Shown: piece after piece, positions 1,611-17,223 of the stretch | How the letters are laid out: each line of letters opens with the position of its first letter | Numbering within the stretch: position 1 is the stretch's first letter | Assembly (NCBI RefSeq): GCF_014904065.1 | Contig: NZ_JACXJG010000020.1 | Span: 14,487-32,784 of the forward strand | Source of the DNA: Gulosibacter sediminis | Lineage (GTDB): Bacteria > Actinomycetota > Actinomycetes > Actinomycetales > Microbacteriaceae | Direction: 5' to 3' | DNA: 18,298 nucleotides | The notes under the pieces: generated by a model | Databases searched by the model: none | Told to the model about the DNA's origin: nothing | The model's input: the letters and a program-made list of their open reading frames with translations, nothing else | Made by a program: the position numbers and the translations under genes

Positions 1611-1650
1611 CCGACACCTCCGACTTCACACGCGACGCAAGTTCGCTCGC

Positions 1651-1656
1651 TACGCT
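1651..1656 (+). promoter_or_regulatory. Probable -10 element of leaderless upp promoter
   Basis: TACGCT lies 7 nt before the upp ATG and no Shine-Dalgarno sequence is present between them. This fits transcription starting at or beside the start codon. The -35 region is not recognisable. Confidence 0.4.
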
Positions 1657-1663
1657 AACTCCT

Positions 1664-2299
1664 ATGGAGCTGCACGTCGCGAACCACCCGCTGATCGACC
1701 ACAAGATGACGCTGCTGCGCGACAAGTCGACGCCGTCGCCGGCGTTTCGCGAGCTCGTCGCCGAGCTCGTCAACCTGCTCAGCTATGAGGCGACACGGGG
1801 GCTGCGCGTTGAGCGCGTCGAGTTTGCGACGCCGGTCGCCACCACGACCGGGTCGAAGGTGACCGAGCCGCTGCCGCTCGCCGTGCCGATCATCCGCGCC
1901 GGCCTCGGCATGCTCGACGGCTTCCTCAAGCTCATGCCCTACTGCGAGGTCGGCTTCGTCGGCATGCGCCGCAACGACGAGACCCTGCAGCCCGAGACCT
2001 ACGCGAAGCGCCTGCCCGAAGACCTCGCCGACCGCCAGTGCTACGTCCTCGACCCGATGCTCGCGACCGGCGGCTCGCTCGCCGCCACCGTGCACTTCCT
2101 CCTCGAGGCCGGCGCGACCGACGTCACCGCGATCTGCCTCGTTGCCGCGCCCGAGGGCGTCGAGAAGATGCAGGCCGACTTCCCGGGCGCCAACGTGCGG
2201 GTCGTCGTCGCGGCGCTCGATGAGGGGCTCAACGAGCAGGGCTTCATCGTGCCCGGTCTTGGCGACGCGGGCGACCGCCTCTACGGCATCGTCGACTAG
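1664..2299 (+). CDS. upp: Uracil phosphoribosyltransferase
   Basis: Pyrimidine salvage enzyme that makes UMP and pyrophosphate from uracil and PRPP. The 211-residue protein matches the usual family length. The PRPP-binding loop [10 protein letters not shown] is at residues 130-139. The uracil-binding C-terminal segment [16 protein letters not shown] is at 193-208. The N-terminal [13 protein letters not shown] segment, which begins the family, is at 8-20. The ATG at 1664 gives the canonical N-terminus and appears leaderless. The gene is divergent from tadA. Its stop overlaps the stop of the convergent downstream gene, so the two ends share four bases (2296-2299) and leave no room for a separate terminator. 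Confidence 0.96.
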
Positions 2300-2772
2300 G
2301 CGTCCGAGCCGACGCCAAGCACGAGGTATTCAACCTGCTGCTTGACGAAGGCGAGCCCTTCGCAGGCTTTGAGGGCGTCGGCCCTCGCGCGTTCGAACTG
2401 CTGCGCGAGCCCCTCCGGCCAGTGCGGCAGCCGCGACTGCAGCGCGCCATCGAGACGCTCGAGCGCGTCTTCGAGGCCGATGTTGCCCGGGTCGATCGGC
2501 GCGCGCCTGGGCACATGCGGCTCGTCGGAGGGCGCGCTCTCGCGCAGCGCATCCTCAAAGCCGGTGATCGCACTAATGAGGTCGGTCGCCAGCTCGGTCC
2601 AGCGCTGCACGAGTCCCCGAAACTCGAGTTCCGTGGGGGTGTCGAAGCCACTGCGGGGAATTCCGTCGAAGTCGGCGCGCACGAGTTCGAGCAGGCCCAT
2701 GAGTTCGGCGCGCGAGGCGCTCACAATTTGCACACTGTCCGCGATCGCGCGATCCATAACCGGCTGATTCAT
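2296..2772 (-). CDS. Hypothetical helical protein, 158 aa
   Basis: I do not recognise this protein. It is 158 residues, soluble, acidic to neutral and without cysteine, signal peptide or membrane segment. Long amphipathic stretches (about residues 5-35, 48-77 and 97-153) suggest an all-helical fold, with a proline- and charge-rich linker near 78-95. The ATG at 2772 is preceded by AGAAGGTGG, a plausible ribosome-binding site at about 7 nt. A second in-frame ATG five codons in is possible. A TATACT hexamer about 45 nt upstream of the start can serve as the -10 element. It converges on upp with a four-base overlap of stop codons. Codon usage is strongly G/C at third positions, as in the flanking genes, which supports real coding. 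Confidence 0.8.
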
Positions 2773-2816
2773 GGCCCACCTTCTCGCAAAACTGATAGCC
2801 GTCTCGGCCTGGTGCG

Positions 2817-2822
2817 AGTATA
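2817..2822 (-). promoter_or_regulatory. Candidate -10 element for the 158-aa gene
   Basis: TATACT on the minus strand differs from the TATAAT consensus at one base and would place the transcript start about 38 nt before the ATG at 2772. No good -35 lies at 17 bp; a TTGAGC is present but 20 bp away. Confidence 0.4.
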
Positions 2823-2948
2823 CGAACGCGAGGTCAGGGCCTGCTCAACTGGGGCCTGAAATCACCCCGAGGGACCACCCCATACAACTTCCGACCGATA
2901 TCGGCCGCGAGCCGAACGTCCACAACTCACTTGAATTCGAATACCTAC

Positions 2949-2977
2949 TTGACTTTGGTTGAGGGCGCAAACAAACT
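2949..2977 (+). promoter_or_regulatory. Candidate promoter of the leaderless short ORF
   Basis: TTGACT at 2949-2954 and CAAACT at 2972-2977 are separated by 17 bp. The -10 element ends 7 nt before the ATG at 2985, so the transcript should start at the ATG or one base from it. The surrounding 100 bp is AT-rich compared with the genes around it, as expected of a promoter region. Confidence 0.5.
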
Positions 2978-2984
2978 TAACGAC

Positions 2985-3083
2985 ATGACTGCAAATTACG
3001 CCCGCCCTGTGTTCGCCCTTGAGGTGGCAGGTCGAGTCGGCATGATGGCCGGCGTTGTGGCGTGCTGTCGAATGTGTCGCTAG
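2985..3083 (+). CDS. Putative cysteine-rich leader peptide, 32 aa, leaderless
   Basis: A short ORF of 32 codons plus TAG. It begins at an ATG placed exactly where the upstream promoter would start transcription, and no Shine-Dalgarno sequence is present. Three of its last seven codons are cysteine (TGC TGT, two codons, then TGT), giving a C-terminus ACCRMCR. Short leaderless ORFs with clustered cysteine codons are known in mycobacteria as cysteine-responsive attenuators of downstream genes; a role of that kind here is inference. The next gene, an orphan winged-helix regulator, begins 91 bp downstream. Two small hairpins lie in that 91-bp leader (3095-3111 and 3117-3130), but neither is followed by a T-run, so a classical terminator is not evident. 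It is too short for coding statistics, and the case rests on position, promoter and codon pattern. Confidence 0.5.
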   Translation: MTANYARPVFALEVAGRVGMMAGVVACCRMCR

Positions 3084-3094
3084 CACGTATCTCC

Positions 3095-3130
3095 GCGCGC
3101 GGTTCTCGCGCACCCAGCCCGATTCCGGGC
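3095..3130 (+). other. Two small stem-loops in the leader between short ORF and regulator
   Basis: GCGCG at 3095-3099 can pair with CGCGC at 3107-3111 around a 7-nt loop. GCCCG at 3117-3121 pairs with CGGGC at 3126-3130 around ATTC. They lie 12 to 47 nt after the stop codon of the cysteine-rich ORF, where an attenuation structure would be expected. There is no T-tract, so they could as well be chance in GC-rich DNA. Confidence 0.25.
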
Positions 3131-3174
3131 ACGTACTCGCACACAACGACCTCATCTGCAGCAAGGAATCTTCC

Positions 3175-3933
3175 ATGTCGAACATCGCCCCGTTCTCACG
3201 CCCCACGCACGCCCACGTTCCCACGGCAGCGGCTGCGCTCAAGCCCGTCACCTCGAGCTACCCCGCCGCTGCGGCCGAGCAGCGCGAGGCCGCAGCCCCG
3301 GTGCAGCCGGTCGCACCGGCCCCCGAAACCCGCGGATTCGCCCTCTACGTCGGGCTCGACACCGACACCGCGACCGCCGATGGAGTGACCCTCACCGAGG
3401 TCGTCACCGCCCTGCGCCGCGTGCTCGCTGAGCGCGCCCCGTCGGCCTCGAGCTACGCATCCGTCGCCTTCGCACCCGCCGGCGCCCCCGGCGACAGCAT
3501 CGACCTCGTTCGCCTCGCGCTCCAGGAGCCGGGCGCGGTGCGCGACCAGCGCGCCGCGCGCCAGGAGGAAGAGCGCGCCGAAGAGGCGAAGCGCTCGCAG
3601 GCAAAGGTCGAAATCGACACCTCGCGCAAGCGCGTACTCGTGCAGGGCGAGAACGCCGAGTTCACGTACAAGGAGTTTGAGCTGCTGCAGGCGCTCGTGC
3701 TCCGCGAGGGCCGCACCGTCAGCCGCGAAGAGATCATCGACGTGCTGTGGCGTGAGTCACACGAGGAGCGCCCGCACGAGCGCACCATCGATGTCCACGT
3801 GCGCCGCCTGCGCCAGCGTCTCGGCGACTACGCCGACATCGTGCGCACCGTGCGCGGCATCGGCTACCGCTTCGACCGTCACGCAGACGTGCGCATCGTG
3901 CACTCGCTCGCGCCCTCGCCCAACCGCCACTAA
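3175..3933 (+). CDS. Orphan OmpR/PhoB-type winged-helix regulator
   Basis: A 252-residue DNA-binding protein with a C-terminal OmpR/PhoB winged helix (Trans_reg_C type) at about residues 145-233. It includes FTYKEFELLQAL, the recognition segment ERTIDVHVRRLRQRLGD (202-218) and the terminal hairpin TVRGIGYRF (225-233). There is no receiver domain and no phospho-acceptor aspartate. The N-terminus is an Ala/Pro-rich tail (1-52), followed by a small globular stretch (53-112) of unknown role and a charged helix (121-143). Reading continues upstream to 3055, but the ATG at 3175 is chosen because AAGGA at 3163-3167 is 7 nt away and the upstream codons overlap the short cysteine ORF in another frame. 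No partner kinase is nearby, and its targets cannot be read from the sequence. Confidence 0.88.
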   Translation: MSNIAPFSRPTHAHVPTAAAALKPVTSSYPAAAAEQREAAAPVQPVAPAPETRGFALYVGLDTDTATADGVTLTEVVTALRRVLAERAPSASSYASVAFAPAGAPGDSIDLVRLALQEPGAVRDQRAARQEEERAEEAKRSQAKVEIDTSRKRVLVQGENAEFTYKEFELLQALVLREGRTVSREEIIDVLWRESHEERPHERTIDVHVRRLRQRLGDYADIVRTVRGIGYRFDRHADVRIVHSLAPSPNRH

Positions 3934-4792: not shown

Positions 4793-5488
4793 GTGAGCCA
4801 AGCCATCGCCATCGTCACCGGGGCTTCGAGCGGAATCGGGCACGAGATCGTGCGCGAGCTCGCGTCGACCCACCGCATTGTCGCGCTCGGGCGGGATGCG
4901 GCGCGGCTCGCCGCGACCGGGGCCGACATCACGGTCACCGCCGACCTGCGCGATGCGGGCGAGTTCGCCCCTGGCGGCAAGGTCGCGGCGCTCATCGACT
5001 CGCTCGAGCGCGTTGACGTACTCGTACATTCTGCCGCCGTGGGCACGCCGGGCTCGTTCGCCGACACGGATGCGGCCGAGTGGCAGCGTCAGCTCACGAC
5101 GAACGTCGTCGCACCTGCGCTGCTCACGCGCCTCGCGCTGCCGAAGCTGCGGGAGGCGGCGGGCACCGTCGTGTTCCTCGGCTCGGGCGTCTCGGTGCGT
5201 CCTGCGCACCAGATGGCCGCTTACGTCGCGTCGAAGCACGCCCTCAAGGGACTCGCCGACTCGCTCCGGCTCGACGAGGCCGAGTACGGCGTCCGCGTGA
5301 CGACGGTCATGCCCGGCCAGGTCGACACCCCCATGCAGGTGGAGCTGCAGGAGGGTCTCGGCAATGCCTACCGCCCCGAGCGCTACCTACGCCCCGAGAC
5401 CGTCGCTCGCGCGGTTCGGTACGTTGTTGACGCCCCCGAGGACGCGCACCTCATCGACCTCAGCATCCGCCCCCGCGTCGCGAGCTAG
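4793..5488 (+). CDS. Short-chain dehydrogenase/reductase (SDR)
   Basis: A 231-residue classical SDR, an NAD(P)-dependent oxidoreductase of unknown substrate. The nucleotide-binding TGASSGIG is at residues 9-16, HSAA (79-82) replaces the usual NNAG, Asn104 is in TTNVVAP, and the catalytic triad is Ser131, Tyr144 and Lys148 in the YVASK motif. PGQVDTPM (174-181) follows as in the family. The GTG start at 4793 has AAGGA 6 nt upstream, overlapping the stop codon of the arsR-type gene, so the three genes should be co-transcribed and the two regulators may control it. The last 102 bp overlap the antisense 3' end of the yhgE-type gene. Confidence 0.92.
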   Translation: MSQAIAIVTGASSGIGHEIVRELASTHRIVALGRDAARLAATGADITVTADLRDAGEFAPGGKVAALIDSLERVDVLVHSAAVGTPGSFADTDAAEWQRQLTTNVVAPALLTRLALPKLREAAGTVVFLGSGVSVRPAHQMAAYVASKHALKGLADSLRLDEAEYGVRVTTVMPGQVDTPMQVELQEGLGNAYRPERYLRPETVARAVRYVVDAPEDAHLIDLSIRPRVAS

Positions 5489-7789
5489 CTTTGCGATCTT
5501 GCGTCGCTCGAGCCAGACGGCGACCGCGATGCCCACCAGCGCGATCGCGAACCAGATGAGCAGGCGGCCGACCGCCGCACTGACGTTGATGGTCGAGCCC
5601 GCAATGAGCGCGCGGAACGCCTCGACCGAGTACGACAGCGGCAGCCACGGGTGGATCGCCTGATAGAACGGTGGCGTCGTCTGCACGGGATACGTCGCGC
5701 CCGCCGAAGAGAGCTGGAGCACGATCATCACGAGCGCGAGGAATCGGCCCGGAGCGCCGAGCAGCGCGACTAGCGCCTGGTTCATCGCGACGAAGGTTAC
5801 GCTTGCGAGGAACGCCAGACCAACTACCGGCCACACCAGTGCGTAGTCGACGCCGACGAGGAAGTGCACGACGAGCAGCATGAGCGTGCTCTGCACGAGG
5901 CCCATGATCGCGCCGGGCAAGAACGCCCGCAAGGTGTCGACGAGGATCGACCCACTGCCACGGGCCTTGCGAAGCGGCTCGTGCATCATGAAGTACGCCA
6001 TGCCGCCGACCCAGAGCGCGAGCGACATGAAGTAGGGCGCCATGCCGTCGGCATTCTTCTTGACCTGGTTCTGGCGGCTCGTGTCGAGCTGCACCGGGTT
6101 CGAGGTGACGTCCGCCAGCGTCTCTGACTCGCTGTCGGTGTAGGAGGGTACTTGGTCGACGCCGTCCTCAAGGCCCGAGGTGAGCTCGCCGCTGCCGTCA
6201 ATCAGTTGATCGAGGCCGTCGCGCAGTGAGCTAGTGCCGTCGGCCGCCTCGCCCGTGCCGTCGGAGACCTGGTGCGCGCCGTCGGCGAGCTCGTCAGCGC
6301 CGTCACTGAGCTCGCTCGTGCCACCCGCGAGGGTGTTCGCTCCCGAGGCGAGTGTGCTCGTGCCACCGGCGAGGGCCGAGGCGCCGTCGGCGAGCTGAGC
6401 GTTCGCGTCGGCGAGCTGCTGCGCGCCCGAGTTCACCTTCGCGATGCCGTCGGCGAGGGTGCCGGAGGCGTCGCGCAACTGCGAGGTGCCGCCCGCAAGG
6501 GTTTCGGCGCCGGTAGCGACCTGCTGCGCGCCGTCATTGAGCTGGTTAACCTGGTCGACGATCGCTCCCGGGTCCTGCAGCGCATCGAGGCTCGAGAGGT
6601 CGATCCCCTCGAGGCTCGTCGCCGCGTCGTCGAAGCCGGTCTGCACCTGCTGCGCGCCCGACTGAATCTGCGTCACGAGCGCAAGCTTTTCTTCGTCGGT
6701 GAGGGCGTCCCAGTTCGTCACGAGGTCGTCGAGGCCGGTCGCGACGTTCGAGGCACCCGTCTGCAGCTCGCCGCCCTGGGCGGTGAGCTGTTCGGCGACC
6801 TGCGCGACCGTCTCGGCGGTCGACGCGGCGCCGTTCACCGCATCCGCGAGCTGCTGCGTGCCGTCGGCGACCTGACCGGCGCCGTCGGCGAGGCTCTGCG
6901 CGCCATCGTCGAGCTGCGCCGCCTGGTCGGGCAGGCCCGCGGTCTGCGTCTCGAGCTCGGCCGTGCCGGCCGCGAGCTCGTTCGCACCGGTCGCGGCCTG
7001 CTGCGCGCCCGAAGAGAGCTGCTGCGCGCCCGCGTCGAGCGTCGCGGCACCCGAGGCGAGGTCGGATGCGCCGCTCGCGGCCTGGTCGGCCCCGCTCGCG
7101 AGCGTGTCGGCGCCACTCGCGAGTTCACCGGTGCCGCTGACGAGCTGGTTGATACCAACCAGCAGCTCGCCCGCACCGTCGTAGGCCTGGCCGATGCCAC
7201 TGCCGAGCTCTTCGGAGCCGTCGGCGGCATCCTGCAGGCTGCCGTGGATCGAGGTGAAGCCGGCGTAGATGTTCGTCAAATACTCGTGGGACACCTCGGT
7301 GGCGAGCTCGTCGGCAACGACGGTGCCGATCTGGTTCGCAATCGTGCCGACGAACATGTTCACGGCGTCGTTCGTCTCGATGTGCAGCTGCGCCCGCTTC
7401 GGGTCGTCGCCCGCGGGCGAGACCGCGTTCGCCGAGAAGTCCTCGGGAATCGTCAGCACCGCGAGCACCTCGCCGTCGGCGAGCTGCTCGGCGGCCTCGT
7501 CGGCCGACAGCTCCTCCCAGTCGAAGTTCTGCGCCTCGTCGCTGTCGACGAGCTTCTCGGTGAGCTGGTCGCCGAGGTCGACGGTCTTCGTCTCGCCGTC
7601 GGTCGTCTCGGTCGTGGTGGCGACATCGTTGTTCACGACGGCGGCCTGGATGTTGTCGAAGTTGCCCTGCGGGTCGCTGAACGAGCCCGTGAGCAGGCCC
7701 GAGTAAATGAGGGGCACCGTGGCGAGGCCAGCAAAGATGATGGCTCGCCACAGTTTTCCGTTGCGGTTCTTAGCTTGCGTTTCGGTCAT
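5387..7789 (-). CDS. YhgE/Pip-family membrane protein
   Basis: An 800-residue membrane protein of the YhgE/Pip family, which includes the Lactococcus phage infection protein and relatives with ABC-2-like C-terminal membrane domains. An N-terminal transmembrane helix is at about 13-33. A large external region follows, with a mixed domain (34-185) and a long xxxLxxG repeat region (about 190-545). Five predicted membrane helices lie between about 584 and 763. The ATG at 7789 overlaps the stop of the upstream tetR gene (ATGA), so the two are coupled and the regulator probably controls it. The hydrophilic tail of about 35 residues reads antisense into the SDR gene for 102 bp. In other bacteria such proteins act in phage adsorption or type VII-like secretion; the function here is not determined. 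Confidence 0.93.
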   Translation of the reverse strand: MTETQAKNRNGKLWRAIIFAGLATVPLIYSGLLTGSFSDPQGNFDNIQAAVVNNDVATTTETTDGETKTVDLGDQLTEKLVDSDEAQNFDWEELSADEAAEQLADGEVLAVLTIPEDFSANAVSPAGDDPKRAQLHIETNDAVNMFVGTIANQIGTVVADELATEVSHEYLTNIYAGFTSIHGSLQDAADGSEELGSGIGQAYDGAGELLVGINQLVSGTGELASGADTLASGADQAASGASDLASGAATLDAGAQQLSSGAQQAATGANELAAGTAELETQTAGLPDQAAQLDDGAQSLADGAGQVADGTQQLADAVNGAASTAETVAQVAEQLTAQGGELQTGASNVATGLDDLVTNWDALTDEEKLALVTQIQSGAQQVQTGFDDAATSLEGIDLSSLDALQDPGAIVDQVNQLNDGAQQVATGAETLAGGTSQLRDASGTLADGIAKVNSGAQQLADANAQLADGASALAGGTSTLASGANTLAGGTSELSDGADELADGAHQVSDGTGEAADGTSSLRDGLDQLIDGSGELTSGLEDGVDQVPSYTDSESETLADVTSNPVQLDTSRQNQVKKNADGMAPYFMSLALWVGGMAYFMMHEPLRKARGSGSILVDTLRAFLPGAIMGLVQSTLMLLVVHFLVGVDYALVWPVVGLAFLASVTFVAMNQALVALLGAPGRFLALVMIVLQLSSAGATYPVQTTPPFYQAIHPWLPLSYSVEAFRALIAGSTINVSAAVGRLLIWFAIALVGIAVAVWLERRKIAKLARDAGADAEVDEVRVLGGVNNVPNRASDGLGA
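6157..7222 (-). repeat. xxxLxxG heptad repeat region within the YhgE-type protein
   Basis: The encoded protein carries dozens of seven-residue units such as TLASGAD, ELADGAH and QLADGAS, interrupted by two non-repetitive segments (around residues 320-365 and 385-415). At DNA level this appears as recurrent GCGCCGTCGGCGAG-like words. The same periodicity leaves a long open frame on the opposite strand, which is not a gene. Confidence 0.85.
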
Positions 7790-8667: not shown

Positions 8668-9774
8668 ATGAACTCTGAAACCAGCGGTGTCGTATCGGCC
8701 CCACCAGTACCCGACAGGAGCATTCTTGCCCCCGCCACAGCAGAATTCGCCAATCTAGTCGAACGCCTCGTCGCCAGCGCCGAGCAGTGCCGCGGCGAAC
8801 CGCAAGCAATGCTCGCGACCCTCGGCGAAGACGCGATTTCGCCAGAGGACTTTCCACTCCCCGGCGAGCACACGCTTGCCCTCTGGGAGCTGCTCGCAGA
8901 AGTGGCCGCCACAGATCTGGTCGCAGCGCGCACGCTCGAACCCCACCTCGACGCACTGGCCATTACTGCGCAGAGTCCCGAACCAGTACCTGCCAAGGGC
9001 ACTTGGGGTGTGTATGCGGCGGAAGGTGGCGACTCACCGTTGACCGCCCACCATCATCTTGGCTCAGCGGCGGACGTGCATTTGAACGGCGTCAAGCCGT
9101 GGTGCTCGCTGGCGGGATCACTCGACGCCGCGTTGGTGACCGCCCACACGGACGAGGGACGTCAGCTATTCGCCATCGATCTTCACCACCCCGGCGTCCA
9201 GGTGGAACGGGTGCGATGGGTGAGCCGTGGGCTCGCGCACGTCCCCAGCGGCCCGATTCGTTTCGACAACGTCCCCGCCACAGCCGTCGGTGCCGTGGGC
9301 TGGTATTTCGATAGACCAGGATTCGCGTGGGGCGGCGCCGGGGTGGCCGCATGCTGGTTCGGCGGCGCCGTCGGTGTTTACCGCGATCTCGTCTCGGCGG
9401 CCGCGCAGCGGCCGCCGGATCAGATTGGTTTCGCCCTACTGGGTCGTGCCGCCCGGTTAGTTCGGACCGGGAAGACTGCGCTCACCGATGCAGCGGAACG
9501 CGTCGACAACGCCTCATTCGATTGGCCAGACTCCCTCGCGCTGCGCAGCACGATCGCAGACATCTGCGCCGACGTGCTCGAGATCTCGGGTGTGGCGCGC
9601 AGCCCTTCCGCCCTCGCGTTCGACGATGTGCATGCCCGTCGCGTCGCTGACCTCGCAATGTACCTGCAGCAGCATCACGGCGGCCGAGACGATGCCGCTC
9701 TTGGCGAGTTCATCGTGCGTGACGATCCGTGGCATGCGCTCACCGGGCCCTCAACTCTGGTCGCCAAATCATGA
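8668..9774 (+). CDS. Divergent acyl-CoA dehydrogenase-family protein
   Basis: A 368-residue protein with the outline of an acyl-CoA dehydrogenase. A helical N-terminal domain is followed by a middle beta domain at about 111-215 (GTWGVYAAEGG, LNGVKPWCSLAG, SGPIRFDNVPATAVG), corresponding to the flavin- and substrate-binding region, and a C-terminal helical bundle. Conservation is weak and I could not place the catalytic glutamate, so normal fatty acyl-CoA oxidation should not be assumed. Several starts are possible: TTG 8629, ATG 8638 and ATG 8668. The last is preferred because AAGGAG at 8655-8660 is 7 nt upstream. The 264 bp before it contain the tetR promoter and no other convincing gene. 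Its stop overlaps the ATG of the deacetylase/methyltransferase gene, so it opens a coupled operon. Its substrate may be carrier-bound or a glycolipid intermediate. Confidence 0.8.
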   Translation: MNSETSGVVSAPPVPDRSILAPATAEFANLVERLVASAEQCRGEPQAMLATLGEDAISPEDFPLPGEHTLALWELLAEVAATDLVAARTLEPHLDALAITAQSPEPVPAKGTWGVYAAEGGDSPLTAHHHLGSAADVHLNGVKPWCSLAGSLDAALVTAHTDEGRQLFAIDLHHPGVQVERVRWVSRGLAHVPSGPIRFDNVPATAVGAVGWYFDRPGFAWGGAGVAACWFGGAVGVYRDLVSAAAQRPPDQIGFALLGRAARLVRTGKTALTDAAERVDNASFDWPDSLALRSTIADICADVLEISGVARSPSALAFDDVHARRVADLAMYLQQHHGGRDDAALGEFIVRDDPWHALTGPSTLVAKS

Positions 9775-11138
9775 CCGCCCCGCGGTTCACGCACGACGAG
9801 CCCGGCACGGGCGCTTCCGACTGGGATTGTGCGCACGAGCTCCCCGGCGTCACGACGACACAACTCCTCTCCCCGGGCGCCCCGCTCGTCGTCGTCGTCG
9901 CCCATCCCGACGATGAAACACTCGGAGCGGGCGGTCTGATTGCGACGGCGGCCGCACACGGGCATGACGTCACCGTGGTGCTCTGCAGCGACGGTGAAGC
10001 GTCGCATCCCGACTCCCGCACGCACACGCGCCAAGAACTCGCCGTGATTCGACGGCGAGAGTTCACCGCAGCCATGGACGCGCTCGGGAGCACGTCGAGG
10101 AAGTCCTGCAACCGTGTTTCGTTCACTGCTCTGGGACTGCCCGACGGACATGTGGGCGAGTTCGGTACCGAAATTGAGGGGGAACTTCGACGACTCGTGA
10201 CTCCGGGCAGCACCATTGCATCGCCCTGGCGGAGCGACGGCCATCCCGACCACGACGCGGTCGGCGAGATAGCCGCGGCAGTAGCCGCCGAGCTTGAGCT
10301 GACACTGCTTGAATTTCCGATCTGGTACTGGCACTGGGCTCAGCCCGTCGCTGATCCTCGCTGGCGGTCCATGCGCATCTTTCGGCTCGATCCGAGCGCG
10401 GCGGGCGCAAAACGGCTTGCGATGGCCGCATATCCCTCCCAGACGACGCCGCTCTCCGCAGCGGCAGAGGACGCTCCTGTGCTCACAGAGCAGTTCTTGC
10501 AGCATTTTCACCGAGACACGGAGGTGTTCCTTCGCACCGAACCCGGCTCGCTCGGAGCGCCGCAAGCGCGCGAAACATTTAACTCGCTCTTCAACAGCGA
10601 CCCGGATCCCTGGCGCTTCGACAGCGATTACGAGGTGCGCAAACGAGAGGTCCTGCTTACATCGCTCTCTCGTCCGGTCTACCGGCAAGCGTTGGAGCTC
10701 GGGAGCGCGACCGGCGCGCTCACCGAGCGGCTGGCGCAGCGGTGCGAATCTGTGGTCGCGATCGATGCGAGTGACGTGGCCGTCGAGCGCAGCCGTGTCC
10801 GCTTGTCCCAGTACCGGCATGTTCGTGTCGAGCAACGCGAGCTACCCGCGGATTGGCCAGACACCGGTCCCTTCGACCTGGTTATCATGTCTGAATTCGG
10901 TTACTACCTCACTCGTATCGAGCTGGGGGAGGTCTTCGAACGGATCGAAGCGTCCGTGACGCCAGACGCACAGGTGGTGCTCTGCCATTGGTTGCACCCG
11001 ATCGACGGTTGGGCGCTGGACGGGCGTGACGTGCACGAAGCCGCCCGGCGACGTGGATGGACCGCGCGGGTCACGCACCACGAAGCGGACTTCCTTTTGG
11101 AAGTCTTCACATTGAACGCGTCGAGTGACTCGATATGA
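9771..11138 (+). CDS. Bifunctional PIG-L deacetylase / SAM-dependent methyltransferase
   Basis: A 455-residue fusion. Residues 1 to about 255 are a PIG-L/LmbE zinc deacetylase: the metal motif AHPDDE is at 44-49 and the second metal histidine is in HPDH at 158-161. Enzymes of this family remove N-acetyl groups from GlcNAc-type sugars, as MshB and PIG-L do. Residues from about 270 to 448 are a NodS-like class I methyltransferase, with DPDPWRFDSDYEVRK (277-291), the SAM loop LELGSATGALTERLA (308-322) and the acidic strand end VVAIDAS (328-334). The fusion suggests that the amine freed by deacetylation is then N-methylated; this is inference. It overlaps both neighbours by ATGA, which implies coupled translation with the dehydrogenase-like protein and the glycosyltransferase. 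Confidence 0.92.
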   Translation: MTAPRFTHDEPGTGASDWDCAHELPGVTTTQLLSPGAPLVVVVAHPDDETLGAGGLIATAAAHGHDVTVVLCSDGEASHPDSRTHTRQELAVIRRREFTAAMDALGSTSRKSCNRVSFTALGLPDGHVGEFGTEIEGELRRLVTPGSTIASPWRSDGHPDHDAVGEIAAAVAAELELTLLEFPIWYWHWAQPVADPRWRSMRIFRLDPSAAGAKRLAMAAYPSQTTPLSAAAEDAPVLTEQFLQHFHRDTEVFLRTEPGSLGAPQARETFNSLFNSDPDPWRFDSDYEVRKREVLLTSLSRPVYRQALELGSATGALTERLAQRCESVVAIDASDVAVERSRVRLSQYRHVRVEQRELPADWPDTGPFDLVIMSEFGYYLTRIELGEVFERIEASVTPDAQVVLCHWLHPIDGWALDGRDVHEAARRRGWTARVTHHEADFLLEVFTLNASSDSI

Positions 11139-11863
11139 GGGGTCCTGCGTGCTCGGCGTTGGCGGTGGTGATTCCGGTACGCGACGAAGCTGCGCTAATC
11201 GGACAAGCGGTCGTCGCGGCACTGGCGGCGATGACCGCTGCCGAGTCGAGTTTCGGCGTCCGCACTCTCCTTGTTCTCGCATTCGACACCTGCGTCGATG
11301 ACTCCGAGCTTGCCGCCCGCGCCGCATCTGCGGGCGATCCGCGGGTGGAGTTCGTGCGGCTCGAATCGGGCATGGTCGGACGAACACGCGCAGTCGGCGT
11401 CGCTACGGCGCTGGGGATCCTGAGGCTACCGCCCTCAAATGTCTGGATCGCCAACAGCGACGGCGACTCTCAAGTACCGGCCCACTGGTGCGTCGAGCAA
11501 CTGCGCGAGGCAGCGGAGGGCGCCGCCGCCATAGTGGGTACGGTGATCCCGACCGGCAGTAGGGACATGAACGAAACGCTCAGCAAATGGGCAGACGACT
11601 ATCGGCCGGTTGATGGGCACGAGCACGTCCATGGCGCGAACCTCGGTGTCCGAGCCGATGCGTACCTCGCGTCGGGCGGTTTCCCTCCGGTCACACACGA
11701 CGAGGATGTGCGTCTCGTGCAGGCTCTGCGGGCTGGAGGTTATCGCGTCGTGGCGTCCGCTCGATGTCCAGTGCACACCTCCGCGCGGACACTCGGTCGC
11801 GCGCCGCACGGTTTCGCGGACTACCTCGCCGGGTTGCAATCGGACGCGCCACGCAGTCGTTGA
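11135..11863 (+). CDS. Family-2 glycosyltransferase
   Basis: A 242-residue soluble GT-A glycosyltransferase. The nucleotide-sugar fold begins at ALAVVIPVRDEAALI (residues 9-22). The metal-binding DxD is DGD at 109-111 within NSDGDS, the acceptor region HGANLGVRADAYLASGGF is at 166-183, and the probable catalytic acidic motif DED is at 189-191. There is no membrane segment, so it acts on cytosolic or membrane-surface acceptors. The ATG at 11135 overlaps the stop of the deacetylase/methyltransferase gene. It is slightly shorter than typical family-2 enzymes but keeps all the main motifs. The -35 element of the following dps promoter overlaps its stop codon. Donor and acceptor cannot be predicted. 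Confidence 0.88.
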   Translation: MRGPACSALAVVIPVRDEAALIGQAVVAALAAMTAAESSFGVRTLLVLAFDTCVDDSELAARAASAGDPRVEFVRLESGMVGRTRAVGVATALGILRLPPSNVWIANSDGDSQVPAHWCVEQLREAAEGAAAIVGTVIPTGSRDMNETLSKWADDYRPVDGHEHVHGANLGVRADAYLASGGFPPVTHDEDVRLVQALRAGGYRVVASARCPVHTSARTLGRAPHGFADYLAGLQSDAPRSR

Positions 11864-11888
11864 GGTCTAACACAAGCGAGTCTGATAG
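11860..11888 (+). promoter_or_regulatory. Candidate dps promoter
   Basis: TTGAGG (11860-11865) and TGATAG (11883-11888) are 17 bp apart and lie 28 nt or more before the dps ATG. This would allow Dps to be made separately from the upstream glycosyl operon, for example under stress. Confidence 0.45.
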
Positions 11889-11916
11889 GCCTTCCGTACA
11901 GACGAACGGAGATCTC

Positions 11917-12441
11917 ATGGCAACAAAGAGCACATCGACGAAGACCAGCGCCCGCCGTAGCACCAGGCAGAATGCGGAGGGCGGGTTCAAGGCATCGGCA
12001 TCACTCACCGACGACCTCCAACGAGTACACATTGACCTCATCGAACTTCATCTACAGGGCAAGCAGGCGCACTGGAATGTTGTCGGCAAGAACTTCCGTG
12101 ATCTCCACCGCCAACTGGACGAGATTGTCCAGAGCGCGCGTGAGTTCAGCGATGAGGTCGCCGAACGCATGCGCGCGCTCCATGCCATTCCGGACGGACG
12201 CAGCGGCACGGTGGCCAAGAACACGACGCTGCCCGAGTTCCCCGCGGGCGAAGTCGACACCGCGGACACAATCGACCTCATCACCGAGCGACTCGAAACC
12301 ACAGTCGGCACGCTTCGGGACGTGCACGACAACGTCGACGAACAAGATCCGACGAGCGCCGACCTGCTGCACGCGATCATCCAACGCTTCGAGCAACTCG
12401 CCTGGATGGTGAGCGCGGAGAATCGCACACCGTCAAAGTAA
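11917..12441 (+). CDS. dps: Dps-family mini-ferritin
   Basis: A 174-residue Dps protein that oxidises and stores iron in a dodecameric shell and may bind DNA. The intersubunit ferroxidase ligands are all present: His52 in AHWN, His64, Asp68, Asp79 and Glu83. The first 19 residues are rich in Lys, Arg, Ser and Thr, a tail of the kind that gives DNA binding in other Dps proteins. The frame is open from 11764, but the ATG at 11917 is chosen because it gives the full family N-terminus and GGAG lies 5 nt upstream. It sits between two glycosyltransferase genes on the same strand with its own candidate promoter. It may be a bystander of the glycosyl cluster or a partner under oxidative or desiccation stress. 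Confidence 0.94.
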   Translation: MATKSTSTKTSARRSTRQNAEGGFKASASLTDDLQRVHIDLIELHLQGKQAHWNVVGKNFRDLHRQLDEIVQSAREFSDEVAERMRALHAIPDGRSGTVAKNTTLPEFPAGEVDTADTIDLITERLETTVGTLRDVHDNVDEQDPTSADLLHAIIQRFEQLAWMVSAENRTPSK

Positions 12442-12503
12442 CCACACGACCGAACCGAACACACTAGCTGCTGGCGCCATACGCGATTGTGAAGGGAATG
12501 CCG

Positions 12504-13604
12504 TTGACACCTCACCCTCCGATCCGTGTGGCGAGCGTGCCCGCCAACCACGTCTACGTTCAGCACCTCCAACCGCTACATCCAGTTCGGGAGGCAAGGG
12601 TGCTTCGGCTTGAGGACCCGACACCGGCGGGCTCGGGGGCCGGGGCTGCTGCGCGGTGGTGGCCGCCGGTGATGCTCGACCCCGAATGGGTTGAGCATCA
12701 CCGCGGCGAGTTCGATATTTTCCATATTCACTTCGGCTTCGACGCACGTACCCCCGAACAACTCGAAGCATTGGTTGCCGCCCTGCGGGCGGCCGGGAAA
12801 CCTCTGGTCTACACGGTGCATGATCTTCGCAATCCGCATCACGAAACCGACGAACTGCACGATGCACAGATCACCGTGCTGATGAACGCGGCCGATGAAC
12901 TCATCACACTCACCGACGGCGCGGCAGACGAGATTTCGCGGAGATGGCGAAGAACCGCGAGGGTGCTGCCCCATCCGCACGTCGTCCCCCTCGACTTGAT
13001 ACCAAGATACCAACGACAGCACCGCTCGCGGCGAAGCGCATTCCGCATCGGCGTTCACATCAAGAGCCTGCGTGCCAGTATGGATCCACTGCCGGTCATT
13101 CGCGCGCTTGTTGACTTGCGGCAGCGCCATGACGGCATCGTGATTCAAGTGAACGGCCACCGCGACGTGCTCGATCGAGACGGCGCGAGACGAGACCCCG
13201 TACTCGGCAGTTGGCTGCAGGAACAGGCAAAATCGGGCTGGATCGATTTGCGCGTTCACGATTATTTCTCGGATGCGGAGTTGTGGCGCTACCTGACAAG
13301 TCTTGACGCCTCGGTGCTTCCGTACCGATTCGGTACGCATTCTGGTTGGTTGGAAGCGTGCCGTGACGTGGGCACCACCGTCATCGCGCCAACCTGCGGG
13401 TACTACACGGACCAGGCACCGGTGATCTCATACCAGCACGATGAGAGCGGGTTCGATGCAGATTCGCTCCAGGCGGCCGTGCTGGCGGCAATTAGCGCAC
13501 CCCCCGCCCCTGTACCGAGCGCGTCATTTCGCCGGGCACAGCGTGAGGAGATTTCGCGCGAGCATGCGGACCTGTACCTACGGCTCGTGAACACTTCCCC
13601 ATGA
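12504..13604 (+). CDS. GT-B-type glycosyltransferase
   Basis: A 366-residue protein with the two-Rossmann outline of GT-B glycosyltransferases. IRVASVPANHVYVQHL opens the N-terminal domain, and DIFHIHFGFD (71-80) and VYTVHDLRNPHH (102-113) resemble the acceptor side of family-4 enzymes. RIGVHIKSLR (181-190) starts the C-terminal domain. LPYRFGTHSGWLEACRDVGT (272-291) sits where the donor-binding E-x7-E motif is normally found but keeps only one clear Glu. In-frame starts exist at GTG 12489, ATG 12498 and TTG 12504. Only the TTG has a well-spaced site, AAGGGA 6 nt upstream, so it is used here with moderate confidence. It converges on the minus-strand glycosyl operon. Confidence 0.85.
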   Translation: MTPHPPIRVASVPANHVYVQHLQPLHPVREARVLRLEDPTPAGSGAGAAARWWPPVMLDPEWVEHHRGEFDIFHIHFGFDARTPEQLEALVAALRAAGKPLVYTVHDLRNPHHETDELHDAQITVLMNAADELITLTDGAADEISRRWRRTARVLPHPHVVPLDLIPRYQRQHRSRRSAFRIGVHIKSLRASMDPLPVIRALVDLRQRHDGIVIQVNGHRDVLDRDGARRDPVLGSWLQEQAKSGWIDLRVHDYFSDAELWRYLTSLDASVLPYRFGTHSGWLEACRDVGTTVIAPTCGYYTDQAPVISYQHDESGFDADSLQAAVLAAISAPPAPVPSASFRRAQREEISREHADLYLRLVNTSP

Positions 13605-13658
13605 CGTGGGCGCCGCGGGCAGCCGTCACCGACGTGCGGTCCGTGCCTCGCTCTTGGA

Positions 13659-14492
13659 TCATTCCCGCGGCCAGCGACGCCGCGCAGACGCTGTGCGGAC
13701 ACCGCCGGTGATAAGACCTCGCGCGCGGAACTCGTCGAGCCAGCCCCGCATCGGCCACGTCTGCCAACGCGTGAAGAATACGTTCGCATTGCGGACGATG
13801 TCATCGAGGTGTTGGGTGGGGGGCGTACTCGTCTCGTGCCACTGGTGGTACGCGCGCGCCGCACCAACCCACACGAGATCGATGCCGCAACTCGCCGCCA
13901 TGTATCCGAAGTCGGTGTCCTCGCCCCCGTAGCCCGAATACTCTTCGCAGAATCCGCCAATGGTGCCCCAGGTTTCCACCGAGAGCGCGAACGAAAGCGA
14001 CCAGAACAAGTCCGGGGACTCGGCACGCGCCACCTCGCCCGGCGCCGGTGCCGGGCGAGCTGGATGTGGCGCATCCAACTCACCGATCGTGCCGATGGGG
14101 TAACCATCCACGCCATGCGGGTCGAGATACGTTACCGGGCCACTGAGCAGACTCCGTTGCAGGGCCGGCCGACCGGCAGCGTCAGCGTACCCGCCAACGA
14201 GCGACTGCCCCGGGATGCAATCCACGTCGAGAAATATGAGCAGTTCCGCTCCTGCCGCGATCGCCGCCGCCGCACCAAGATTCCTAGCTCGCGACAGAGG
14301 CAGTCCGAGCGGCGTGCTCGGAACGTCGACGACCGTCGCGAATGGCGGGGCCATGGCACGAATCTCAGGATCGTCCATCGCGACGATGATGTAGTCGTCC
14401 GGCGCCTGCGCGGAGAGGGCGAGCCCCTCCTGCTGAGCGCGAAGGTGCGCATGTCGCCCATGTGCGATCGTGATAACTGCCGTGCGCATCAT
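13659..14492 (-). CDS. Family-2/7C-like glycosyltransferase
   Basis: A 277-residue GT-A glycosyltransferase. The metal-binding DVD is at 89-91 (LIFLDVDCIPG). A galactosyltransferase-like motif, YSGYGGEDTDFG (185-196), is typical of the Glyco_transf_7C domain that follows family-2 cores, and HQWH (216-219) gives the usual C-terminal histidines. The frame extends upstream to 14555, but the two adjacent ATGs at 14492 and 14489 give the natural start MRTAVITIAHGRH. They overlap the stop codon of the preceding glycosyltransferase and follow GGGGAAG. It is the last gene of the minus-strand operon. The 54 bp between it and the convergent plus-strand gene holds no obvious terminator. Confidence 0.88.
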   Translation of the reverse strand: MMRTAVITIAHGRHAHLRAQQEGLALSAQAPDDYIIVAMDDPEIRAMAPPFATVVDVPSTPLGLPLSRARNLGAAAAIAAGAELLIFLDVDCIPGQSLVGGYADAAGRPALQRSLLSGPVTYLDPHGVDGYPIGTIGELDAPHPARPAPAPGEVARAESPDLFWSLSFALSVETWGTIGGFCEEYSGYGGEDTDFGYMAASCGIDLVWVGAARAYHQWHETSTPPTQHLDDIVRNANVFFTRWQTWPMRGWLDEFRARGLITGGVRTASARRRWPRE

Positions 14493-15511
14493 GACTTCCC
14501 CGCGATATCCCGGATGACCGCGGCGGCCCGATCCGCACCGTAGCCATCGTTCCACGACTTCCAGTTTCTGCCGTCAAGCTGTCCAGCCCGCTCAAGTAAG
14601 TGGGCCCAGTCGTTACGTGCGAAGCTGTTCGCCACCATTACCGGGAGTCCGTCAGCCCGCGAAAGCGTGTGCGCCGTCATGATTTGTTCGCGGAAGGGGC
14701 GTTCCTGCGGAACTACTAAGGCGGGAACTCCGACAGCAGCAATGTCTGCGACCGCACCCTGGCCCGCATGGCTCACCACCATCGACGCGCGTCTAAGCCA
14801 ATCCGCCGGGTTAGGCGACCAGTTGTCGGCACTCGTGCCCACCTCGATCCACTCCACACCGGGTGTCTGCGCGCGAGCGGCGCGGATTTCGGGTTCACGC
14901 ATGCCGCCACCGCCACCACCACCCAGGACGACTACTCGATGTATCGACGCCGGGGTGCGTCCGGGACTGTTCGCCTGGACGGAGATCGCACCCACGGCAA
15001 AGAGTTTCCCTGCCAGAGGCTGAGCAACCGGTCCCGCGCCGGGAGTGTCTGCGGTGTCGACGCGGAGCATCCCCATCGCCCACTCGGGCCACGCGCCGAT
15101 GATGGCATCCGAGACATCGAAACCGAGGCGGTGCGCATGATCGGACCGCACACCTGGCAAGGCTATGCTGACGACCGGTACGCCGTGGAGGCGCGCGAAC
15201 AAGGCCACCTCTACCGAAACGTCGACCACCATCGCATCCGGTGCAGTCCTGTCGATCCAGGCGGCGATCTTCGCCATTCGATGCCGTAAACCCGCGTCGT
15301 GTTTCGGCGCCCAATGCAGACGTCCATCAGCCGTTTCGCTGCGTCCGTGACCGCTGACGTCGTCGCGCTCGAGTTGGAGCCACTGGCCCGGCCATCCCTC
15401 GGGCCGAGCCAGCGACGAGATGCCGGTGATTGGAACGCCGAGCCTGGCGGCGATCGCGCACGCCCTCCGAAGATGGCCGCGCCCGTGATGGTGAACGTAA
15501 TAACCGATCAC
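14489..15511 (-). CDS. MurG/UGT-like GT-B glycosyltransferase
   Basis: A 340-residue glycosyltransferase of the GT-B fold. The N-terminal glycine/histidine loop YYVHHHGRGHLRRA (4-17) resembles the acceptor-binding start of MurG-like and PseG-like enzymes. The C-terminal domain starts at about 192 with VVVLGGGGGGG. The donor-binding signature SHAGQGAVADIAAVGVPALVVPQERPFREQ spans 247-276, closely following the SHGG...P pattern of families 1 and 28. There is no membrane segment. The GTG at 15511 overlaps the stop of the GT4 gene upstream (GTGA), and its own stop overlaps the start of the next glycosyltransferase, so the three are tightly coupled. Substrates are unknown. Confidence 0.88.
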   Translation of the reverse strand: MIGYYVHHHGRGHLRRACAIAARLGVPITGISSLARPEGWPGQWLQLERDDVSGHGRSETADGRLHWAPKHDAGLRHRMAKIAAWIDRTAPDAMVVDVSVEVALFARLHGVPVVSIALPGVRSDHAHRLGFDVSDAIIGAWPEWAMGMLRVDTADTPGAGPVAQPLAGKLFAVGAISVQANSPGRTPASIHRVVVLGGGGGGGMREPEIRAARAQTPGVEWIEVGTSADNWSPNPADWLRRASMVVSHAGQGAVADIAAVGVPALVVPQERPFREQIMTAHTLSRADGLPVMVANSFARNDWAHLLERAGQLDGRNWKSWNDGYGADRAAAVIRDIAGKS

Positions 15512-16587
15512 AATGCAGTAGTTCTGCGCTTGCCCGAACTGACGGCCGCGTCGAGGACCCGTTCATACCCAGTGACCATTCGCTCCAGCGAACAGTGCGC
15601 GACGGCATGCGCGCGGACCTCGTCCCGAGGCAGTGCAGCAGCCTCGGCGGCTGCCTGCGCGAGTGCGTGCGGTTGTTCTGCCTGCACTAGACGACCAGAA
15701 CTCGCCCCGATAACCTCTGGCAGAGCTCCTCGCTCGAACCCTGCTACCGGGGTGCCGCTCGAGGTAGCTTCTGCCGCCACCAGCCCGTAGGGTTCGTTCC
15801 ACCGTGGCGTTACAAACGCGAGCTTCGAGTGCCTCACCACGTCCCGGAGCGTGGAGTGGTCCAGGTGCCCGAGATACCGGATTTGGGTGCCGAGCCACGG
15901 TTCGACTTCGGCCTCGAAGTAACCCTTGTCGTGCACAGGGCCGGCGATATCGAGTGACATTCCGGCTTCGAATGCGGCGCTGATCGCGTCAGCAGTGCCC
16001 TTCTCCGGAACAATCCGCCCGAACCAAATAGCTCGTTCCCCACCAGGGCCGAACCGCCACGCGTCCGTATCCACTCCGTTGAGCACAACCGTTGAGTCGA
16101 CCTGCTCGGCCCAGGCAAGCTGCATATGCTTGCTCACCGTAACAAAGGTCGTGTTTGCCCCTCGAACACGCATCGCCGACTCGAGCCAGTCCAGGGGTGG
16201 CGTATGGAGCGTCGTCACTAGGGGAATGCTGAGCAACCTGGACATCGCGATCGGCAAGTGATGGATACTCACGTTCAGCACCACGTCGAATCGGTTCGCG
16301 CCGGACTCGGCAAGGTCGATCATGAGCGACAAGTAGGCATGGTGCTCACGGATCCACATCTTCGGTGAGGCGCCTACATCATGGCGCGCCGCAGTGCTCG
16401 GTTCAAACTCCGCCGCATCGTAGAACGATGCGTTCAATGACGGGTCAGAACCCCGCGCGGCGAAAAGCGTGACCTCGTGCCCTCGCTGCGCGAGTTTGGT
16501 GACGAGCATGTGTGTGTGGGCCTCAAGGCCGCCAGCGAACGGTTCGATAATCGGAAACCGCGCTGGGCCGATGATACAGATTCTCAC
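15508..16587 (-). CDS. Family-4 glycosyltransferase
   Basis: A 359-residue retaining GT-B glycosyltransferase. The N-terminal glycine-rich loop is in PFAGGLEAHTHML (16-28), IWFGRIVPEKGT (187-198) opens the donor domain, and the family-4 E-x7-E motif is Glu265 to Glu273 within NEPYGLVAAEATSSGTPV. The reading frame continues to 16653, but the upstream residues look unlike the family. The GTG at 16587 gives the expected MRICIIGPARFPI start, with GGAG 9 nt upstream, so it is preferred. It is the first gene of the minus-strand operon and overlaps the next by GTGA. It shares the fold of MshA, but no mycothiol ligase or acetyltransferase gene is nearby. Confidence 0.9.
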   Translation of the reverse strand: MRICIIGPARFPIIEPFAGGLEAHTHMLVTKLAQRGHEVTLFAARGSDPSLNASFYDAAEFEPSTAARHDVGASPKMWIREHHAYLSLMIDLAESGANRFDVVLNVSIHHLPIAMSRLLSIPLVTTLHTPPLDWLESAMRVRGANTTFVTVSKHMQLAWAEQVDSTVVLNGVDTDAWRFGPGGERAIWFGRIVPEKGTADAISAAFEAGMSLDIAGPVHDKGYFEAEVEPWLGTQIRYLGHLDHSTLRDVVRHSKLAFVTPRWNEPYGLVAAEATSSGTPVAGFERGALPEVIGASSGRLVQAEQPHALAQAAAEAAALPRDEVRAHAVAHCSLERMVTGYERVLDAAVSSGKRRTTAL

Positions 16588-17128: not shown

Positions 17129-17150
17129 CCAGTTCTGTCTCCACACAGAG

Positions 17151-17223
17151 TGCGCCTGGAGGGACTCGAACCCCCAACCTTCTGATCCGTAGTCAGATGC
17201 TCTATCCATTGAGCTACAGGCGC
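17151..17223 (-). tRNA. tRNA-Arg (anticodon ACG)
   Basis: A 73-nt cloverleaf on the minus strand. The acceptor arms are GCGCCTG and CAGGCGC with discriminator A. The D arm is GCTC/GAGC, the anticodon stem TCTGA/TCAGA encloses the loop CTACGGA, and the T loop is TTCGAGT. The CCA end is not encoded. Anticodon ACG requires wobble deamination to inosine by TadA to read all of CGU, CGC and CGA. A promoter and a terminator flank it. Confidence 0.97.

Follow-up and report, generated by a model that had tools for sequence, protein, structure and literature searches.

Two joined gene modules for glycosyl transfer and putative aminosugar modification in Gulosibacter sediminis, and a possible stress-protective oligosaccharide

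The gene cluster and its enzymes

The stretch of Gulosibacter sediminis DNA analysed here (18,298 nucleotides, referred to as the window; part of contig C37 of a 2.68 Mb genome that is 91.5% complete) contains a real and conserved cluster of eight genes, in which two gene modules are joined. Module A encodes a flavoenzyme (ADH), a deacetylase-methyltransferase fusion and a GT2 glycosyltransferase, and module B encodes four further glycosyltransferases (GTB, GT4, GT28 and GT7C). The genes are as follows.

8668..9774, plus strand: ADH, flavoenzyme with the acyl-CoA dehydrogenase fold, module A gene 1 (Pfam and fold search)
9771..11138, plus strand: fusion of a PIG-L-type N-deacetylase and a NodS-like SAM methyltransferase (MT), module A genes 2 and 3 (Pfam PIG-L and NodS)
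11135..11863, plus strand: GT2 glycosyltransferase, module A gene 4 (Pfam Glycos_transf_2, 25.4 bits)
11914..12441, plus strand: Dps-type ferritin, a stress neighbour (Pfam Ferritin, 68.8 bits)
12489..13604, plus strand: GTB, GT-B-type glycosyltransferase, module B gene 1 (weak Glyco_transf_4 match)
13659..14492, minus strand: GT7C-type (galactosyltransferase-related) glycosyltransferase, module B gene 4 (Pfam Glyco_transf_7C, 27.0 bits)
14489..15511, minus strand: GT28, MurG/UGT-like glycosyltransferase, module B gene 3 (Pfam Glyco_tran_28_C, 36.1 bits)
15508..16587, minus strand, GTG start: GT4 glycosyltransferase, module B gene 2 (Pfam GT4 domains)

All eight genes lie where an initial annotation, made from the sequence alone, had placed them, and the four 4-base overlaps that it reported were read from the DNA. 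Three of them are ATGA (ADH/PIG-L-MT, PIG-L-MT/GT2 and GT28/GT7C), the GT4/GT28 overlap being GTGA. The convergent genes GTB and GT7C are separated by 54 bp. A scan for sigma-70 promoters was uninformative (1 found against 1.2 expected), and terminator-like sites numbered 7 against 4.4 expected.

Membership of ADH in the acyl-CoA dehydrogenase fold is clear, its sole Pfam match being Acyl-CoA_dh_M (31.2 bits, slightly below the 33.3 cut-off). The fold search did not decide its chemistry, because acyl-CoA dehydrogenases, TdsC/DszC and KijD3 tied; identity to the group D flavin monooxygenases and sugar nitrososynthases (DszC/TdsC, KijD3, DnmZ) is about 13–18%. The C-terminal domain Acyl-CoA_dh_1 was found in 7 of 45 ADH members, the window's own not among them, and the family has no invariant or nearly invariant Glu past residue 245. 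We consider that ADH is probably not a true acyl-CoA dehydrogenase. Both halves of the fusion protein scored above their Pfam cut-offs (PIG-L 90.8 against 28.2 bits, NodS 52.2 against 24), and the PIG-L motifs HPDDE (H45 P46 D47 D48 E49) and DxHxDH (D156 H158 D160 H161) were present in 100% of 65 sequences. TT1542 (1uan) and diacetylchitobiose deacetylase tied as the nearest solved structures of the PIG-L part, and 4isc, followed by NodS, was nearest to the MT part. The acidic motif of GT2 is also kept, with D109 and D111 in 100% of 58 sequences.

Among the module B enzymes, GT4 carries Pfam GT4 domains (57.7 and 49.9 bits), and the Glyco_transf_4 match of GTB (24.2 bits) falls below the 28.5 cut-off. 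Residues H7, H8, G10, G12 and H13 at the N-terminus of GT28 were conserved in 96–100% of 54 sequences; in GT7C, D89 and D91 were found in 100% and E191 and D192 in 98% of 54 sequences. A single-sequence search yielded no solved relative of GT28 or GTB. The nearest solved structure to GT4 was 7fg9 (E 3.8e-33), a glucosylsucrose synthase (PMC9909042). The alignment with this relative begins at residue 23 of the longest open reading frame (ORF), which starts at 16653; for this reason the GTG start of the initial annotation, at 16587, is preferred.

Conservation of the two modules

The loci compared were gathered by homology and are not a random sample: module-B-only loci were centred on GT28, and module A loci on PIG-L or ADH. 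Removal of the duplicates L160 and L192 from 142 left 140 distinct loci, and all p values ignore phylogeny. The fusion protein was unsuited for counting, because PIG-L is generic (287 of 296 genomes of the class matched), and the ADH profile (E <= 1e-30) and GT28 (E <= 1e-12) were used for genome counts instead. The plasmid loci viewed were 7 from 82 PIG-L-MT records, 3 more from 32 ADH records and, for module B, 13 from 35 GT28 and 39 GT7C records, including two from actinomycetes (Rhodococcus and Arthrobacter); the remaining 11 plasmid loci, together with L205 and L208, make up the 13 module B loci from outside the actinomycetes. The last of these was scored as B-only in the locus counts, its ADH gene having escaped tblastn, and belongs to none of the three groups compared for stress genes below.

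In module A, the order ADH-PIG-L-MT-GT2, on one strand and within 5 kb, was found at 70 of the 77 actinomycete loci with ADH (three others have GT2 first, two exceed 5 kb and two have no recognised PIG-L gene). Twenty gammaproteobacterial loci carried ADH: 13 had this order within 5 kb, four had GT2 first, and three were missing one or two members. PIG-L and MT form a single fused frame in Glutamicibacter, Arthrobacter and Brevibacterium (L002-L010, L023), like the window, and two separate pieces in the Pseudomonas loci L011-L022. Methylobacterium sp. FF17 has an ADH-like gene without the rest of the module.

All four module B genes were present at 49 of 56 actinomycete loci with GT28, the other seven missing only GTB. 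Many relatives have GTB immediately ahead of GT4 and on its strand, and the window has facing operons because its GTB is turned round relative to its module B partners. The facing operons are thus module A, plus Dps, against a four-gene module B with an inverted GTB. This modifies the initial grouping of Dps and GTB with the first operon: both are present, GTB belongs with module B, and Dps is a frequent neighbour that is not clearly part of the pathway. In 54 stretches (53 module B loci and the window), ORF clusters of WcbI type (15), of further GT2/7C type (23) and of FkbM type (10) also occurred; one member of each was checked by Pfam, and some of the ORFs are in doubtful frames. At L092-L144, in many actinomycetes, module B lies beside GT2/7C and WcbI genes, a protein of about 340 amino acids (aa) without a Pfam match and an FkbM methyltransferase (clusters K3, K5, K6 and K8). 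In the Sphingomonas taxi plasmid (L226), a gene for a sucrose-phosphate synthase (SPS)/phosphatase (S6PP)-like fusion, GT28, GT7C and GT4 are followed by genes for a polysaccharide pyruvyltransferase and a GT2 enzyme.

The two modules also keep company with each other. Across 347 genomes drawn from the window's order, ADH was found in 99, GT28 in 67 and both in 47, compared with about 19 expected (odds ratio 10.3, Fisher p 1.5e-15, not corrected for phylogeny), and both modules shared one fetched stretch of about 20 kb at 14 of the 77 actinomycete module A loci. Two Novosphingobium plasmids (sp. P6W and N. resinovorum) carry the run catalase-GT4-GT2-GT28-ADH-PIGL-MT-GT7C, with profile E-values in sp. 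P6W of 1.6e-128 (GT4), 3.9e-34 (GT2), 1.7e-83 (GT28), 6e-52 (ADH), 1.2e-30 (PIGL), 1e-56 (MT) and 2.3e-88 (GT7C). A conjugative plasmid of Sphingobium xenophagum has the same seven-function run without catalase, GT28 being annotated in two pieces. The seven shared functions, assigned by profile homology, are predicted to form one operon in three sphingomonad plasmids. At the gammaproteobacterial locus L208, an SPS/phosphatase-like fusion and GT7C, GT28, GT4, GT2, ADH, PIGL and MT lie within 9 kb, GTB being absent; at L205, an SPS/S6PP-like fusion, GT28, GT7C, MT and ADH are consecutive, a catalase gene lies further along, and PIG-L and GT2 were not found. We reject the view that the window holds two unrelated operons that happen to lie side by side, since the seven functions make up one predicted sphingomonad operon and meet again in L208. 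Recurrence of this gene set as a group in two phyla, Actinomycetota and Pseudomonadota, sets the arrangement apart from chance, and the conserved neighbourhood that had been anticipated is borne out by this comparison of loci.

The distribution suggests that the cluster may have spread horizontally. In a FastTree phylogeny of 106 ADH sequences, the window's ADH grouped with those of Glutamicibacter, Arthrobacter and one genome of family f2 in a clade of 8 tips with support 0.975; no other member of the window's own family (f1) was present in the clade of 16 that comes next. The closest relatives of the window's GT28 (59–60%) belong to two genomes of family f2, and plasmid copies occur in both phyla.

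As to the surroundings, a tRNA-Arg (acg) gene lies just past the cluster at 17150-17223 on the minus strand, a possible integration spot for a cluster that may have been transferred. Upstream, positions 1152-3933 hold what we take to be tadA-, upp- and winged-helix-regulator-like genes, relatives of which adjoin module B at L120 and L122 (family f6). Positions 5387-7789 on the minus strand presumably encode a membrane protein of 800 aa that resembles YhgE/Pip and contains long repeats; a presumed TetR-like regulator comes next.

Stress genes and disaccharide synthases near the modules

Stress genes were scored in the fetched stretches, mostly of 20 kb, as matches of at least 80 bits to KatE-type catalase, Ku, LigD, Dps, otsA or otsB. 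At least one was present at 33 of the 77 actinomycete module A loci (Dps 14, KatE 12, Ku 7, LigD 5, otsA 3) and at 9 of the 20 gammaproteobacterial ones (LigD 7, Ku 6, KatE 1, otsA 1, otsB 1), compared with only 1 of 42 module-B-only actinomycete loci, a group drawn from the same order (p 4.7e-7 against the actinomycete module A loci). The sole positive B-only locus, L116, proved in a profile search to carry ADH, MT and GT2. Dps itself was found at 0 of the 42 B-only loci; it was considered as a pathway gene and rejected, being one of several alternative stress neighbours. One representative each of Ku and LigD was confirmed by Pfam.

Similar surroundings were seen at annotated plasmid loci. 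Module A lies between otsA and otsB on two Comamonas plasmids. In Acinetobacter ursingii it has otsBA, catalase and xseA as neighbours, an MFS gene separating it from otsA, and in Legionella lytica, whose ADH carries the annotation hypothetical, otsB and a GH65 gene precede it. The Cupriavidus copy has genes for GlgE, GlgB and catalase nearby, with a PIG-L gene on the other side of the catalase gene. Module A adjoins a catalase gene in Sulfitobacter faviae and lies near Ku, DNA ligase (LigD) and rpoH genes on a Bradyrhizobium plasmid; in Kitasatospora, a ferritin-like gene and a spore-photoproduct-lyase gene are in its surroundings. Expression results from Acinetobacter baumannii are consistent with these neighbourhoods. 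A transcriptome table in PMC5660220 marks ACICU_02432-02435 as one operon (glycosyltransferase, SAM-dependent methyltransferase, LmbE and acyl-CoA dehydrogenase-related protein), with expression reduced 31- to 62-fold in each of the two colistin-dependent mutants, together with a 12- to 50-fold fall of otsA/otsB. In an excerpt of PMC6240043 the same gene set lies beside blsA. These genes share four annotated functions with module A and fall with otsAB, PIG-L and MT being separate, unlike in the window, and module B going unmentioned in the excerpts; homology is judged from gene names and from tblastn hits in A. baumannii records, not in those very genes.

A link to non-reducing DISACCHARIDES was found on the module B side, where an SPS/S6PP-like fusion lies beside module B genes at 9 of the 13 non-actinomycete loci viewed (L205, L208, L222, L224, L226, L227, L229, L230 and L232, the loci without it being L220, L223, L228 and L231). 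Eight of these fusions were identified by Pfam and that of L226 by a profile built from those eight, making it the only independent profile find. In the scanned actinomycete loci, the lone trace of SPS/S6PP was a single match of 41.7 bits, in L133. At 5 of 7 fusion plasmid loci (L222, L224, L229, L230 and L232, all alphaproteobacterial) there is an annotated sulfotransferase gene nearby, a hint that the product may have a sulfated form. The window genome probably has the ability to make trehalose, because its TreY scores 840.7 bits, well above the cut-off of 498.65; TreS did not score above its cut-off in this genome. A sucrose phosphatase was looked for in the same genome and rejected, the only match being partial (27.3 bits) and to a model that also matches 11 of 14 controls.

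A possible protective oligosaccharide and its alternatives

Co-conservation of the modules in two phyla, intact catalytic motifs and a frequent context of stress and disaccharide-synthase genes are what we observed. On this basis we give an even chance to the reading that the products of the locus act in a single pathway, which makes a soluble oligosaccharide inside the cell as protection against stress. The acceptor would be a non-reducing disaccharide, sucrose-like where an SPS/SPP-like fusion is near and trehalose-like near otsA/otsB; trehalose would be a plausible core in the window genome, given its TreY. GT4, GT28 and GT7C, and in actinomycetes GTB too, would add single sugars from nucleotide sugars in the cytosol, and GT2 would attach an N-acetylaminosugar. 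The PIG-L domain could then strip the acetyl group from this sugar, the NodS-like domain methylate the freed amine and ADH oxidise the amino sugar, by N-oxygenation or dehydrogenation. The product would be an N-methyl-aminosugar oligosaccharide that accumulates as a protectant in a general stress or desiccation response. It is conceivable that a stand-alone module A decorates trehalose directly, and that at stand-alone module B loci other tailoring substitutes, for example by the nearby sulfotransferase. The gene set does imply a specific modified oligosaccharide, as the initial annotation held; of its two options, oligosaccharide or glycolipid, the second is considered less likely, since the eight proteins show no sign of a lipid or membrane carrier. 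A soluble protectant is favoured over a lipid-linked product because of the stress-gene and sucrose/trehalose context.

Several known systems resemble parts of the proposed chemistry. De-N-acetylation followed by N-methylation of an aminosugar is the order of Nod factor tailoring by NodB and NodS; the cluster would follow the same order and has an MT related to NodS, but its deacetylase is of PIG-L and not NodB type. In mycothiol and bacillithiol synthesis (MshA/MshB, BshA/BshB), a GT4 enzyme and a PIG-L deacetylase act on a small soluble acceptor, whereas the cluster has additional methylation, oxidation and glycosyltransferases. A PIG-L gene (PSPTO_4989) that PMC8005017 places in the lipopolysaccharide core locus of Pseudomonas syringae was rejected as a parallel; its neighbours differ (an RfaB-type glycosyltransferase and GNAT). 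The nearest solved relative of the window's GT4 comes from cyanobacterial glucosylsucrose synthesis: according to PMC9909042, TeGSS (tll1591), encoded beside the SPS gene tll1590, is a GT4 enzyme that extends a non-reducing disaccharide, with its product found under salt and heat stress. Differences from that system are the added glycosyltransferases, deacetylase, methyltransferase and flavoenzyme of the cluster, and SPS was not seen in the window. The UDP-diphosphate contacts Arg179 and Lys184 of glucosylsucrose synthase are kept as R213 and K218 in 55 of 55 GT4s, which is weak evidence. Such Arg/Lys contacts are common in GT4 enzymes.

Several observations weigh against a protective oligosaccharide. 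The catalytic Tyr18 of glucosylsucrose synthase is not conserved, the aligned position 40 being Ala in the window and in 34 of 55 GT4s, with Tyr not among the six commonest residues, and GT4 shows almost the same similarity to UDP-glucose:tetrahydrobiopterin glucosyltransferases (E 3.7e-28). Sucrose and trehalose genes were not seen in the window, and a search of its genome for OtsA gave no match. Five of the SPS/S6PP-like fusions, scored against the NCBIfam SPS model, were strong and yet below the equivalog cut-off (best 454.6 against 576 bits), as was one Comamonas OtsA (526.9 against 564.85 bits); for this reason their products may be variants and not plain sucrose or trehalose. As many as 44 of the 77 actinomycete module A loci lack any scored stress gene, the three otsA-positive ones are all from Brevibacterium, and some of the stress queries (a Ku, a LigD and two Dps) were themselves taken from module A loci, a bias in favour of module A in the comparison. 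Plasmid copies in Pandoraea and Sphingobium have no scored stress gene nearby, CsbD being close in Pandoraea. Across Gammaproteobacteria module A is rare (5 of 274 genomes of the class and 7 of 194 in one order, each count including the Pseudomonas genome used as centre). In A. baumannii, many other genes fell as strongly in the data excerpted from PMC5660220, indicating that co-regulation is broad. Finally, as the initial annotation had supposed, no characterised product, and likewise no substrate or phenotype, was found for the module in searches of the open-licence literature aimed at it; the retrieved parts of PMC4192346 and PMC12029717 contain nothing on it.

The product might instead be a short surface glycan or glycolipid, in which the glycosyltransferases extend a lipid or wall carrier with an oligosaccharide and module A adds a modified terminal aminosugar. 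The presence of five glycosyltransferases, GT28 being MurG-like, is in keeping with this, as are the WcbI, FkbM and further glycosyltransferase genes at some actinomycete module B loci, which also count against a soluble product, and the pyruvyltransferase gene after module B in Sphingomonas taxi. Marginal hydrophobic windows were found in GT7C (4), GT2 (2) and GT28 (1); two other proteins of the window, the 800-aa membrane protein and an MFS protein, have 55 each, and a 19-residue hydropathy scan of the eight proteins detected no clear membrane segment in the cluster enzymes. No flippase, polymerase, exporter, lipid-carrier or anchoring family was matched among the eight proteins, export genes elsewhere in the genome not having been sought, which agrees with the earlier view that this is not a standard capsule locus. 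Flippase, polymerase, carrier or anchoring genes are likewise not annotated in the compact sphingomonad operons, and module A tracks stress and disaccharide-synthase genes. We regard a surface glycan as less likely than a soluble protectant, and on the whole unlikely.

A still smaller likelihood attaches to the idea that module A acts by itself to yield a diffusible small molecule, an N-methyl-aminosugar metabolite such as a mycothiol-like cofactor, a signal or an oxidised sugar, and that module B is separate and merely nearby. PIG-L enzymes do work in mycothiol and bacillithiol synthesis, and the modules often occur apart: at the cut-offs used, 52 of the 99 genomes with module A had no GT28 match and 20 of the 67 with module B no ADH match, and 63 of the 77 actinomycete module A loci lacked module B in the fetched stretch. 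The seven-function predicted sphingomonad operons, L208 and the excess of genomes with both modules speak against separateness. Mycothiol and bacillithiol themselves were rejected, in line with the initial annotation in the case of mycothiol, since scores lay far below the curated cut-offs (MshB 34.6 against 224.35, BshB1 37.7 against 182.5 and MshA 38.2 against 462.5 bits). Very improbable, in our judgement, is a lipo-chitooligosaccharide or Nod factor-like signal, in which the terminal GlcNAc of a GlcNAc oligomer would be deacetylated and N-methylated. The PIG-L domain is near diacetylchitobiose deacetylase, MT is related to NodS, and the Bradyrhizobium plasmid with module A is from a soybean-nodule strain; NodA, NodB and NodC were unmatched among the eight proteins, however, and the NodS equivalog model scored 64 against a cut-off of 300 bits. 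The standard Nod factor pathway was rejected on these curated NCBIfam cut-offs. Acinetobacter, Comamonas and Glutamicibacter, all of which have module A, are not known as legume symbionts.

The stress-protective oligosaccharide may, more tentatively, represent a new class of bacterial protective sugars, with a sucrose- or trehalose-like core bearing an N-methylated, oxidised aminosugar. It is possible, if rather doubtful, that the cassette encoding it, which is also carried on plasmids and is found in Actinomycetota and Pseudomonadota, forms with catalase, Dps, DNA end-joining and trehalose a jointly induced kit for survival in the dry state. The reading predicts a soluble N-methyl-aminosugar oligosaccharide that is induced by stress and is gone upon deletion of a single gene. 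If true, it would suggest functions for the GT28 and GTB glycosyltransferase families and for a flavoenzyme family annotated, perhaps wrongly, as acyl-CoA dehydrogenase. It would also mean that many soil, plant-surface and marine bacteria, along with Acinetobacter, share an overlooked protectant besides trehalose and sucrose.

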